DNA of 35,858 nt from positions 1 to 35,858 of IMG/VR virus record IMGVR_UViG_3300042914_001779. The stretch is one strand, 5' to 3'. The DNA is from a virus. The notes below the pieces were generated by a model. The model was not told where the DNA came from. It ran no database searches and saw only the letters and a program-made list of their open reading frames with translations. A program made the translations under genes and the position numbers. Below are positions 7,053-35,858 of the stretch, in pieces (within the stretch, counting starts at the first letter, position 1; the number at the start of each line of letters is the position of its first letter).

Positions 7053-8252
7053 ATGGCGGCGCTGCCTGAAGATCCTCACACCACCAGCGCCGCGATCGTG
7101 CGGTGGTATGAGAGCAAGCCGCAGGAGCACCGCCCCCACATGGGGGCCAGCCTGATCGGCCACGTCTGCGACCGCTACATCTGGCTGACCTGGCGCTGGG
7201 CCATGAAGCCGGAGTTCAAGGGCCGCATCCTGCGACTGTTCAACACCGGCGTGCGTGAGGAGTCGCGCCTGATCGAGGAGCTGCGCGGCATCGGCGCCGA
7301 GGTCTGGGACACCGACCCGGCCACCGGCGACCAGTGGCGCGTGAGCACATGCAACGGGCATTTTGGCGGCTCGCTAGACGGCGTGGCCAAGGGCCTGCCC
7401 GAGGGACCCAAGACGCCCGCGGTGCTGGAGTTCAAGACGCACTCCAACAAGTCCTGGAACGACGTCACGAAGAAGGGCGTGCAGGCCAGCAAGCCGCAGC
7501 ACTACGACCAGATGACGGTCTACATGCAGCTGATGGATCTGGACCGCGCGCTGTACATGGCGGTGAACAAGGACACCGACGACGTCTACACCGAGTGGGT
7601 CCACTTCAACCGCGAGCGGTTCGACCAGCTGATCGAACGCGCCCAGCGACTGCTCGACTCACCGGCGCCGCCGTATCGCATCAGCACGAAAGCAGATCAC
7701 CCCGAGTGCAAATACTGCTCGATGTGGAAGGTCTGCCACGGTGGCCAGGCCGGCGAGCCCAACTGCAGGACCTGCTGCCACTCGACGCCGATCGAAGATG
7801 CGCAGTGGCGTTGCAACCTCGACAACCAAGAAATTTCGCTGGAGATGCAGCGCGCCGGCTGCCAGCACCACCTGATGATCCCGGGCCTGCTGCCCTACGC
7901 CGAGCCGGTGGACGGGGGCGAGAACTTCGTCGTGTACCGGCACACCGAGACGGGCAAGCTGTTCACCAACGGCCCCGATGGCTGCAGCGACCAGGGCCCG
8001 GTGTTCTCAAGCAAGGAGCTGCACCGCTGCCCGGGCTCGCTGATCGGCGAGATGTCTGAGTTTAAGGACCACTTCCCTGGCGCCAAAATCACCAGCGGCG
8101 AGGTGTTCGCGCCTAAGACCGTGGGCACGATCATGGACATGGAGTCGGACGACCTGGACGCGATCCCGACGAAGCCGACTAGCAAGGCGCAGAAGGAAGC
8201 GGCCGCCAAGCGCACGCGCACGGCCAAAGCAATCATGGAGGGCAAGGTATGA
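7053..8252 (+). CDS. PD-(D/E)XK exonuclease (Cas4/RecB-like)
   Basis: A 399-residue protein. The start at 7053 follows an AGGGG site; an upstream in-frame reading overlaps the previous gene. The nuclease core is visible: GVREES (E70), GSLDG (D109), VLEFKTH (E126, K128) and HYDQMTVYMQL (Q153), the order D-ExK-Q typical of RecB/Cas4-type nucleases. A Cys cluster at about 234-263 (CKYCSMWKVC, then CRTCC) could bind zinc or iron-sulphur. A second domain after residue 270 is less familiar and a Lys-rich tail ends the protein. It probably resects DNA ends for the Sak4-like annealing protein. Confidence 0.8.
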   Translation: MAALPEDPHTTSAAIVRWYESKPQEHRPHMGASLIGHVCDRYIWLTWRWAMKPEFKGRILRLFNTGVREESRLIEELRGIGAEVWDTDPATGDQWRVSTCNGHFGGSLDGVAKGLPEGPKTPAVLEFKTHSNKSWNDVTKKGVQASKPQHYDQMTVYMQLMDLDRALYMAVNKDTDDVYTEWVHFNRERFDQLIERAQRLLDSPAPPYRISTKADHPECKYCSMWKVCHGGQAGEPNCRTCCHSTPIEDAQWRCNLDNQEISLEMQRAGCQHHLMIPGLLPYAEPVDGGENFVVYRHTETGKLFTNGPDGCSDQGPVFSSKELHRCPGSLIGEMSEFKDHFPGAKITSGEVFAPKTVGTIMDMESDDLDAIPTKPTSKAQKEAAAKRTRTAKAIMEGKV

Positions 8253-9567: not shown

Positions 9568-9618
9568 TTTTGTGCCAGGAAATACTGTTGACAGACCCCT
9601 ACACTGTTGCGACAATCT
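9568..9618 (+). promoter_or_regulatory. Integrase promoter with operator and arm-type site
   Basis: A near-consensus sigma-70 promoter: TTGACA (9588-9593), a 17-base spacer and GACAAT (9611-9616). A 14-base motif TGTTGCGACAATCT (9605-9618) covers the -10 and resembles TGTTGCCGCAATCT at 3524-3537 in the immunity region (12 of 14 bases), so the phage repressor or Cro may control int directly. Just upstream, TTTTGTGCC (9568-9576) is the inverted form of GGCACAAAA, the repeat found around the probable attP, suggesting that the integrase may bind its own promoter region. Confidence 0.6.
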
Positions 9619-9648
9619 CAACACAACAACACAGCAAGGACCCACGAC

Positions 9649-10605
9649 ATGACCCTCAAACTCCGCAACGACACTTACTGGATCGACGTCCAGATCAACG
9701 GCCAGCGCATCCGCGAGTCGCTCAAGACGACCGACAAGAAGCAGGCCCAGGCCCTCTATGACATCCGGCGCGCCGAGCTCTGGCGGGGCCGCATGCTCAA
9801 GGCCAAGCCCAAGAAAACCTTCCGCGAGGCCTGCGCCCGCTGGACAGTGGAGCGCGCCCACAAGAAGTCGATCCAGGGGGACAAGGAAAAGATCAGCTTC
9901 TTCCTGCCGAAGCTGGGCGATCGCCAGCTCTCCACCATCACCCGCGACGACATCGAGGACTCGCTGCCGCAGGACCTCAAGCCGGCCACCCGCAACCGCT
10001 ACCGCGCCTTCATCCGCGCCGTGCTGCGTGCGGCCGAGCGCGAGTGGGATTGGATCGACCGCGCCCCGGTGCTGCGCACTGAGGCCGAGCCCAAGCGCCG
10101 CGTCGCGTTTCTGTCACGCGAGCAAGCCGAGGTTTTGGTCGACTCTCTACCAGAAAAGTACCGGACTCCCGTCCGTTTCGCTTTACTCACCGGGTTGAGA
10201 AGATCTAATGTGTTCAACCTTACCTGGGACAAGGTGGATCTGGAGCGCGGGATGGTGATCGTGGAGGCCGACGAGGCTAAGGCCGGCCAGCGCATCCTGG
10301 TGCCCCTGAACAGCCAGGCCAAGGCGATCCTGGCCGCCCTGCCGGAGCCCCGCACCGGCCGCGTATGGGGTGACCTCACCCGCGTGTGGTGCAACACCTG
10401 GAAGGCCTCGTGCAAGCGCGCCGGCGTACCTTGGCTGCGGTTCCATGACCTGCGCCATACCTGGGCCAGCTGGCACGCGATGGCCGGGACCCCGCTGTCG
10501 GTGCTGCAGGAGCTGGGCGGCTGGCACTCGCCGCAGATGGTCCAGCGCTACGCGCACCTGTCGCCGGAGCACCTGGCTGCGGCTGCGGAAAGGGTGGGGC
10601 TATAA
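9649..10605 (+). CDS. int: Tyrosine-recombinase integrase
   Basis: A 318-residue site-specific recombinase. The start at 9649 has AAGGA upstream; an in-frame ATG at 9607 lies inside the promoter. Residues 1-50 form a small arm-binding domain, about 55-140 the SAM-like core-binding domain (TFREACARWTVERAH onward), and 150-318 the catalytic domain. Catalytic residues are R184 (TGLRRSN), probable K211, H266 and R269 (HDLRH), H293 (GGWHS) and nucleophile Y301 (RYAHLS). It integrates the circular phage genome into the host chromosome, probably at a tRNA-His gene given the adjacent att-like region. It has its own promoter and a terminator at 10703. Confidence 0.95.
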   Translation: MTLKLRNDTYWIDVQINGQRIRESLKTTDKKQAQALYDIRRAELWRGRMLKAKPKKTFREACARWTVERAHKKSIQGDKEKISFFLPKLGDRQLSTITRDDIEDSLPQDLKPATRNRYRAFIRAVLRAAEREWDWIDRAPVLRTEAEPKRRVAFLSREQAEVLVDSLPEKYRTPVRFALLTGLRRSNVFNLTWDKVDLERGMVIVEADEAKAGQRILVPLNSQAKAILAALPEPRTGRVWGDLTRVWCNTWKASCKRAGVPWLRFHDLRHTWASWHAMAGTPLSVLQELGGWHSPQMVQRYAHLSPEHLAAAAERVGL

Positions 10606-10702
10606 AAAATTTTCTGCAATTTGTTGATTTTTCATCCTAATTTGATAAGATTGCGTTGCGCTCACCTAAGGGCGCCAGGTTTGACAGCCTGAACACAGCG
10701 GC

Positions 10703-10732
10703 AAGCCAAGCCGCACGAGCTTGGCTTTTTTG
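10703..10732 (+). terminator. Rho-independent terminator after int
   Basis: Perfect 8-bp stem AAGCCAAG (10703-10710) and CTTGGCTT (10720-10727), nine-base loop, followed by a T run on the plus strand. It ends the integrase transcript about 100 bases beyond the stop codon. Confidence 0.85.
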
Positions 10733-10744
10733 TTTGGTGCCCAT

Positions 10745-10840
10745 TTTTGGGCGGCTGAACGGGGGAGCTCTAGGGCTCGCCGGTCGCTGTGCCGGTCTGT
10801 CAACCCTGTTCAGTCGCCCGCCCCGGTTGACGCGGGGCTT
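10745..10840 (+). ncRNA. C4 antisense RNA-like structure (candidate)
   Basis: The segment folds into a closed multibranch structure. GGGCGGCTGAAC (10749-10760) pairs with GTTCAGTCGCCC (10808-10819), 12 pairs with one G-U, extended inward by GGG with CCC and enclosing small GAGC/GCTC and CCGG/CCGG hairpins. A second hairpin, GCCCC (10820-10824) with GGGGC (10834-10838), follows; its loop GGTTGAC (10825-10831) is complementary to GTCAACC (10799-10805). Sequence and position agree with my memory of the C4 antisense RNA family of phages P1 and P7, which sits on the same transcript as and represses a downstream anti-immunity gene. The family name is from recall. Confidence 0.5.
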
Positions 10841-10862
10841 TAGAAACACAGCGGAGCACCAA

Positions 10863-11045
10863 ATGCAAGAAATCACCACCCCCAAGCACGACGCCGAGCA
10901 CATCGTTCTGACGGCTAGCGGAATGTTGTCATCCCTGATCTTGTTGCTTACCTCATCTGAGGGCGATTGCGTTTCAAGGCGGGTGCTGATTCAGGCCTTG
11001 GAAGGGGTCAATCTGCTGCTTAATGAAGCAGCCCCAAAGGACTAA
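10863..11045 (+). CDS. Small protein downstream of C4-like RNA
   Basis: A 60-residue protein with GGAG six bases before the ATG at 10863. It is predicted helical with a hydrophobic middle (HIVLTASGMLSSLILLLTS) and a C-terminal VLIQALEGVNLLLNEA helix. Size and pattern recall short DUF3077-like proteins found after similar RNA structures in Pseudomonas phages, but I cannot confirm the family. Its place just after the C4-like structure makes it the candidate gene controlled by that RNA. It ends against the tRNA-His gene, which faces the other way. Confidence 0.6.
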   Translation: MQEITTPKHDAEHIVLTASGMLSSLILLLTSSEGDCVSRRVLIQALEGVNLLLNEAAPKD

Positions 11046-11122
11046 TGGGGTGGCTGATGGGGCTCGAACCCACGACCACTGGAATCACAATCCAGGGCTC
11101 TACCAACTGAGCTACAGCCACC
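11046..11122 (-). tRNA. tRNA-His (GTG anticodon)
   Basis: Read on the minus strand, the 5' acceptor GTGGCTG pairs with CAGCCAC, with an extra 5' G (position -1) opposite discriminator C as required for tRNA-His, followed by an encoded CCA. The D arm holds AGCTCAGTTGGTAGAGC, the anticodon stem CTGGA/TCCAG encloses TTGTGAT (anticodon GTG), and the T arm contains GGGTTCGAGCCCC. It appears intact. It abuts the integrase-side att region, so it may be part of attP as well as or instead of serving translation. Confidence 0.92.
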
Positions 11123-11187
11123 TCTGACTGCTTGGAATGGCACAAAAACGGCACATTCCTGAATTTTTAACCCTGCGGCGCCTTATA

Positions 11188-11254
11188 AATCAATAGGTTA
11201 GCGAGACAAAGTACCAGAATCACAATCGGTATATGCCATCCTAACCTATTGATT
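11188..11254. repeat. 14-bp inverted repeat around an anticodon-loop copy
   Basis: AATCAATAGGTTAG (11188-11201) and CTAACCTATTGATT (11241-11254) are perfect inverse complements separated by 39 bases. The centre contains GAATCACAATC (11217-11227), identical to the tRNA-His segment at 11082-11092, flanked by TACC and GGTA. This may be a recombination core or a binding site for integrase or excisionase. Confidence 0.85.
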
Positions 11255-11323
11255 GAGCGTTTCTCAGCGTTGAGTGACGCATGCCGTGTCACGTTTGTGC
11301 GGCACAAAAGTGGCACAAAAAAA

Positions 11324-11343
11324 TGCCCCGGCTGAGCGGGGCA
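11324..11343 (-). terminator. Terminator of the leftward late block
   Basis: TGCCCCG (11324-11330) and CGGGGCA (11337-11343) form a 7-bp GC-rich stem with a six-base loop. On the minus strand the stem is followed by seven T bases, a classical rho-independent terminator closing the late transcript after the last small gene at 11373. AAAA on the other side could give weaker termination on the plus strand. Confidence 0.85.
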
Positions 11344-35301: not shown

Positions 35302-35607
35302 TCAGGTTTTCGTCAGCCGCTTGATCTCGCGGTTGATGTACCAGGCGGCCTTCTTCAGGTCCTCCACCGGGTTGGGGCTTTTGATCCCGGCGCGCCAGAC
35401 GTACTTGATCGCGTTGCCCAGGTTGAAGTTGTAGTGCTCGGTGACCTGGATGCACTCGACCCCACTTGGGTGGCTGGTGTAGTGCACGGGATGGTTTATC
35501 AAGTCGGGTTTTGCGGTGGACGCGGGCTCGTACTTGGCCCCGCAGTCGCAATCGCGCCCGCTGCCGCGCAGGGATGCGCAGTCGGTGTCGTGGTGAGGTT
35601 TGCTCAT
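35302..35607 (-). CDS. DUF3310 protein
   Basis: A 101-residue protein from the ATG at 35607. The core (LINHPVHYTSHPSGVECIQV, TEHYNFNLGNAIKYVWRAG, DLKKAAWYINREI) is the DUF3310 signature, often annotated as a SaV-type phage nucleotide kinase although activity is not well established. The N-terminal 35 residues add a Cys/His-rich stretch (HHDTDCASLRGSGRDCDCGA) of unclear role. No Shine-Dalgarno precedes this ATG; the upstream bases are C-rich, so translation may be inefficient or use another mechanism. It sits directly before terL. Its first codons are repeated at the left edge of the window. Confidence 0.85.
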   Translation of the reverse strand: MSKPHHDTDCASLRGSGRDCDCGAKYEPASTAKPDLINHPVHYTSHPSGVECIQVTEHYNFNLGNAIKYVWRAGIKSPNPVEDLKKAAWYINREIKRLTKT

Positions 35608-35858
35608 AAGGTTGGTGGGGGGTAGGGAAAAATGAGAGGGGGCCCCAGCCTCGGCCCCTCCCCCCGCCCCCGGCTCAAGGGGGGGGTGGGGGTCAGGAAT
35701 CGCCCGCGGCCGGCAGTGCCCCGAGCAGGGGCCTAGAAGCGCGCAGGAGACGCGATCGCAGAGCAGGTCAGGCCAGGGCCCCACCTCAGCCCTCCGAGCG
35801 CCCTGGCGGGCCGCTATTCGCGTCGCCCCCTGCTGCCGCCGGCGTGGCTGGCGCCCCC
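35598..35858. repeat. Right copy of terminal repeat
   Basis: Matches 1-261 without gaps, exactly for 35732-35858 and imperfectly for 35626-35731. It includes the first three codons of the DUF3310 gene and the GC-rich non-coding stretch beyond it; no gene is seen in 35608-35858. It is read here as the true junction sequence of the circle, with the left copy being a variant. C tracts and a long G tract are again visible. Confidence 0.9.

Follow-up and report, generated by a model that had tools for sequence, protein, structure and literature searches.

The 35,858-bp window, the whole stretch of DNA analysed here, is an IMG/VR phage record in which structural, replication and packaging genes are present. 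This phage very probably relies on tRNA-dependent lysogeny: its integration would split the host tRNA-His gene, and a complete tRNA-His carried by the phage would replace it. Tyrosine integrase, short core without tRNA rebuilding and complete tRNA of the isotype of the core, the hallmarks of such lysogeny that can be read from sequence, were all found.

Anatomy of the attP region

Downstream of the tyrosine integrase gene, the window contains an attP of the lambda type. The following features were located.

9607..10605, plus strand: tyrosine integrase (Pfam PF00589, E 5.6e-24; PHROG_1, E 2.1e-66)
11046..11121, minus strand: complete tRNA-His(GTG) (ARAGORN; Rfam RF00005, 67.6 bits; compensatory changes in 10 distinct phage copies)
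11139..11147, plus strand: arm-type site, first of the left pair (GGCACAAAA), -80 from the core, kept in relatives
11150..11155, plus strand: arm-type site, second of the left pair (GGCACA), -69 from the core
11188..11200, plus strand: IHF-consensus site (WATCAANNNNTTR), left half of the inverted repeat, exact match
11217..11227, plus strand: attP core, 11-bp copy of the tRNA-His anticodon region (GAATCACAATC), assigned from the invariance of ATCACAA and its place between the arm pairs
11219-11225, plus strand: predicted 7-bp overlap ATCACAA, invariant in 34 attPs
11242..11254, minus strand: IHF-consensus site (WATCAANNNNTTR), right half of the inverted repeat, exact match
11301..11309, plus strand: arm-type site, first of the right pair (GGCACAAAA), +82 from the core
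11312..11320, plus strand: arm-type site, second of the right pair (GGCACAAAA), +93 from the core
11324..11343, minus strand: terminator-like hairpin (consensus scan)

The initial annotation had placed arm-type repeats at 11139, 11301 and 11312. These coordinates are correct, and a fourth arm-like site, GGCACA at 11150, had been missed. Within each pair (11139/11150 and 11301/11312) the spacing is 11 bp. Counted from the first base of ATCACAA, the offsets -80, -69, +82 and +93 are shared by almost every related locus of the window's class. Elsewhere in the 35.9-kb window, GGCACAAAA is found only at 9568, on the opposite strand. This extra copy (9568-9576) is inverted, lies just ahead of the integrase start and is possibly a site of Int autoregulation, or a chance occurrence.

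A 14-bp inverted repeat around an 11-base copy of the anticodon region had also been described. The repeat is indeed present (11188-11201 and 11241-11254, 100% complementary), and GAATCACAATC occurs twice, at 11082-11092 inside the tRNA and at 11217-11227 within the repeat. Both halves of the repeat match exactly the IHF consensus WATCAANNNNTTR as quoted in PMC7581858, at offsets -31 and +23 from the core. Two such sites in the attP segment were obtained in 5e-5 of shuffles. The left site is kept where integrase identity is at least about 85%, both sites only where it is at least about 93%, and the sites are not conserved in more distant members. Since they are kept only among closer relatives, assignment of the inverted repeat to two putative IHF sites is likely, not certain. 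The recurring arm offsets, the invariant ATCACAA and the rarity of the IHF pair in shuffles show that the attP elements exceed chance.

Of 44 attPs, 29, including that of the window, have a terminator-like hairpin ahead of the core. At 11324-11343, it would halt leftward late transcription ahead of attP and the tRNA.

The crossover core is predicted at the second anticodon-loop copy

ATCACAA corresponds exactly to the anticodon loop. Apart from a few single positions nearby, it is the sole fully invariant block in 34 related attPs. In prophages of distant relatives, with integrases 41-43% identical, direct repeats cover the tRNA gene from its 3′ end up to the anticodon-loop edge for tRNA-Thr and tRNA-Asn; for tRNA-Met, the repeat extends two bases past this edge. 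One related prophage (integrase 43% identical) is located in tRNA-His; one of its ends holds a rebuilt tRNA, the other only positions 31-76. The arms flanking at fixed offsets, the invariance of ATCACAA and the prophage repeats edged by the anticodon loop argue that the second copy (11219-11225) is the crossover core. This had been one of two options in the initial annotation, and the arm pairs do flank this copy.

Crossover in the anticodon loop of the complete tRNA itself would leave a complete tRNA at both prophage ends and would make the second copy a relic or a decoy. The tRNA does include those 11 bp, and a long stretch of it could pair with the host tRNA-His, but all four arm sites are on one side of it, whereas the two arm pairs have the second copy halfway between them. 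Moreover, in many relatives the integrase ends about 10 bp from the tRNA, leaving no space for a left arm on the far side of the tRNA, and L035-L040 carry a classical tRNA 3′ half at the core position. We regard this alternative as highly unlikely. The complete tRNA was rejected as the crossover site on the placement of the arms, outside of which it lies.

An attP aimed at another target, with a fortuitous match to the anticodon loop, is hardly credible. In its favour are the shortness of the match and the lack of any observed lysogen; however, next to an identical core, relatives with integrases about 74-79% identical match the tRNA-His 3′ half at 34 to 38 of 38 positions, and related integrases are located at tRNA genes in genomes. 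We retain ATCACAA as the predicted core, with tRNA-His as its probable target.

A complete tRNA-His lies outside the arms

The initial annotation had proposed a complete tRNA-His, which the ARAGORN call and the Rfam score bear out, and we agree that a complete tRNA at this place is unusual. It had also been described as a full tRNA in attP. The tRNA is complete, but it sits just outside the left arm pair and not in the recombining attP, as would a ready-made replacement. No other tRNA is encoded in the window. G-1 is encoded at 11122, base 73 is C and the CCA end is encoded.

In all, 41 complete tRNA-His copies were collected, 40 of them next to related integrases and one in the contig L119, and represent 10 distinct sequences. 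All 41 have G-1, GTG, C73 and an encoded CCA. Across the 10 sequences, 210 of 210 stem pair cells are standard and five pairs are altered on both sides. Judging from these alignments, the phage tRNA-His is well-formed and under constraint. The complete phage tRNA is always of the His isotype, matching the core, and always lies between the integrase and the left arm.

Integration would split the host tRNA-His gene

The attPs were joined in silico to bacterial tRNA-His genes from six usable hosts, a seventh being left out because its tRNA was mis-extracted. In none of the six hosts was tRNA-His rebuilt by the window attP or by those of five same-class relatives. The attPs of L036, L037, L039, L040 and L079 rebuilt tRNA-His in six of six hosts and that of L028 in four of six. 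The window attP matches the tRNA-His 3′ half at 12 of 38 positions, as compared to 34-38 in canonical relatives. Because it has only about 11 bp in common with tRNA-His, it cannot rebuild the host tRNA. The other option of the initial annotation, restoration of a complete host tRNA on integration, is not supported on this ground.

Host copy number was examined in nine genomes, each giving one complete tRNA-His match (one genome was only partly aligned). In eight of them this match was the single one; the ninth contained the complete gene and a displaced 3′ half. With one complete tRNA-His per tested genome, single-copy hosts of this kind would probably not survive loss of the gene.

In the proposed mechanism, the integrase would bind the paired arm sites and IHF would bend the DNA at the two inverted sites. 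Recombination would take place between the core and the matching anticodon loop of the host tRNA-His gene. As the window attP holds no 3′ tRNA half, the host gene would be split and not rebuilt, and the missing tRNA, needed by the lysogen, would be supplied by expression of the complete phage tRNA-His outside the left arm pair.

Read along the tRNA strand, attL would consist of the host promoter, the host 5′ half, the left arms and the phage tRNA. The phage tRNA would thus follow the host tRNA-His promoter and the broken 5′ half at a distance of about 100 bp, in the same orientation, and could be read from this promoter. Such capture of the host promoter is plausible. Between the core and the tRNA, no convincing promoter of the tRNA's own and no signal above chance were detected. 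A further proposal, which we advance only tentatively and consider somewhat doubtful, is that the phage tRNA is promoterless, stays silent in the free phage, shielded by the upstream terminator, and is switched on only by integration behind the host tRNA-His promoter. If so, the act that breaks the host gene would also activate its replacement.

Canonical, intermediate and putatively dependent states in one phage family

Related integrases were found in 79 viral loci and a few further ones. Three states were found with one integrase type and one target. In the canonical state (L028, L039, L040, L079 and the distant L002), only the tRNA-His 3′ half is present, at the core. In the intermediate state (L035-L038), a complete tRNA outside the arms accompanies the 3′ half at the core. 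In the dependent state, that of the window and most others, the complete tRNA is associated with a bare core, and the left arms are about 22 bp, or two helical turns, nearer to the core.

The intermediate L036 and the canonical L039 share about 96% identity in the integrase and the upstream DNA. They are set apart by some 90 bp between the integrase and the first arm, a block that holds the tRNA. The three states and this close pair make the order of events testable; they fit a series in which the tRNA was acquired before the 3′ half was lost.

In the integrase trees, canonical lineages are interspersed among dependent ones and L002 has a long branch. Parsimony on these trees gave three to four changes of the dependent-state label, and the strongly supported branches are compatible with one origin. 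Taken alone, the integrase tree may also be compatible with the reverse order.

The tRNA-His might be ordinary cargo that aids translation or replaces tRNAs cleaved by host anticodon nucleases; its agreement with the attB isotype would then be a coincidence, or merely a by-product of capture from the integration site. Phages often carry tRNAs, and a counter-defence role is discussed in PMC10865867. In addition, L035-L038 have the tRNA though their own attP would rebuild the host gene, so the presence of a complete tRNA does not imply that rebuilding requires it. Against this, the tRNA is alone in the window, is always His and always has the same place between integrase and left arm. No complete cognate tRNA was found in relatives with tRNA-Cys, tRNA-Ser or tRNA-Asn attPs, and the 3′ half is lacking only where a complete tRNA is present. 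We consider the cargo explanation unlikely and favour a replacement role for the phage tRNA-His.

Two other tRNA-related arrangements were observed among the relatives. L053 carries a tRNA-Leu(GAG) (7702-7796) about 1.8 kb downstream of the integrase; its attP has a tRNA-Cys 3′ half, so this tRNA is non-cognate. In L066-L070, L075 and L076, reading by eye indicated an apparent tRNA-Ser 5′ half, not a 3′ half, downstream of the integrase, with which restoration would need to proceed from the opposite side.

Search for integrated copies

No integrated copy of the window phage or of a close relative in the dependent state was found in the viral contigs or the sampled genomes. Search of the viral contigs for hybrid attL/attR patterns returned only intact tRNA-His genes (L119, L120) and no true hybrid. 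In about 770 genomes, from the order and the class to which one distant relative belongs, no integrase match exceeded 50% identity, and in 399 of these genomes the hybrid pattern matched only intact tRNA-His genes. As these searches cover a sample only, the absence of a copy is weak evidence. As no integrated copy was found, we infer attB, the host and the lysogenic junctions from the free-phage records and their relatives; distant relatives and the tRNA sequence suggest a proteobacterial host.

Comparison with known systems

tRNA-dependent lysogeny was defined by three traits together: a core that is short, a tRNA gene that is not rebuilt and a phage tRNA that is cognate (Guerrero-Bustamante & Hatfull 2024, PMC10865867). 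The actinobacteriophages of that study, Fionnbharth, LeBron, Gaia and Mollymur, resemble the window phage by their tyrosine integrase, their pairs of arm-type sites, a core of about 10 bp unable to rebuild the tRNA and a complete phage tRNA of the core-matched isotype; they also have relatives with a canonical attP. However, phages and hosts are unrelated, and the tRNAs are Lys, Ile2 and Leu there, His here. The Fionnbharth tRNA has a strong promoter of its own, whereas none is evident for the window tRNA. The need for the tRNA was tested in the actinobacteriophages; in the window phage it is predicted from sequence. Unlike those systems, the window phage family includes an intermediate (L035-L038) in which a complete tRNA and a 3′ half occur together. 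The family bears on the evolutionary relation of dependent to canonical, tRNA-restoring integration, which PMC10865867 left open together with the prevalence of dependent systems beyond actinophages.

In Sinorhizobium meliloti, prophages like Mesorhizobium phage vB_MloP_Lo5R7ANS integrate in the middle of a tRNA gene and inactivate it, and the prophage carries a similar tRNA (PMC11476347). That case concerns tRNA-Leu(UAG), an alphaproteobacterial host and integrated copies, whereas the window family is represented by free-phage records only.

Canonical anticodon-loop integration, in L039, L040, L028 and L079 and in prophages of G184, G044, G131 and G259, involves related integrases and an anticodon-loop core; the four viral relatives also share the GGCACA-type arm pairs of the window. 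These systems differ from the window in that the 3′ half in attP rebuilds the host tRNA, and in having no complete tRNA copy.

The same layout was observed in L119 (2600-4562 of a 41.9-kb viral contig), with a complete tRNA-His, a second TATCACAATC copy and an IHF-like inverted repeat. Its tyrosine recombinase is very different (about 24% identity over 111 aa), and L119 is possibly an independent case.

Integrase neighbourhood and genome ends

The start codon of the integrase is uncertain, with an alternative ATG at 9646. The gene is followed by a small ORF (10656-11045), without family match, and then by the tRNA-His. Between integrase and tRNA, a strong match to C4 antisense RNA was found at 10743-10825 on the plus strand (Rfam RF01695, 67.9 bits), overlapped by this ORF. 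C4 RNAs are known in P1/P4-type immunity. The slot between the integrase stop and the tRNA (10606-11045 in the window) holds differing small ORFs in L005, L006, L015, L017 and L029 and is empty in L009 and L011; from its contents, we view it as a variable cargo site.

Finally, the two ends of the record (1-261 and 35598-35858) are similar but not identical, with 230 of 261 positions matching without gaps, an observation that points to a circular or terminally redundant genome whose overlap varies.
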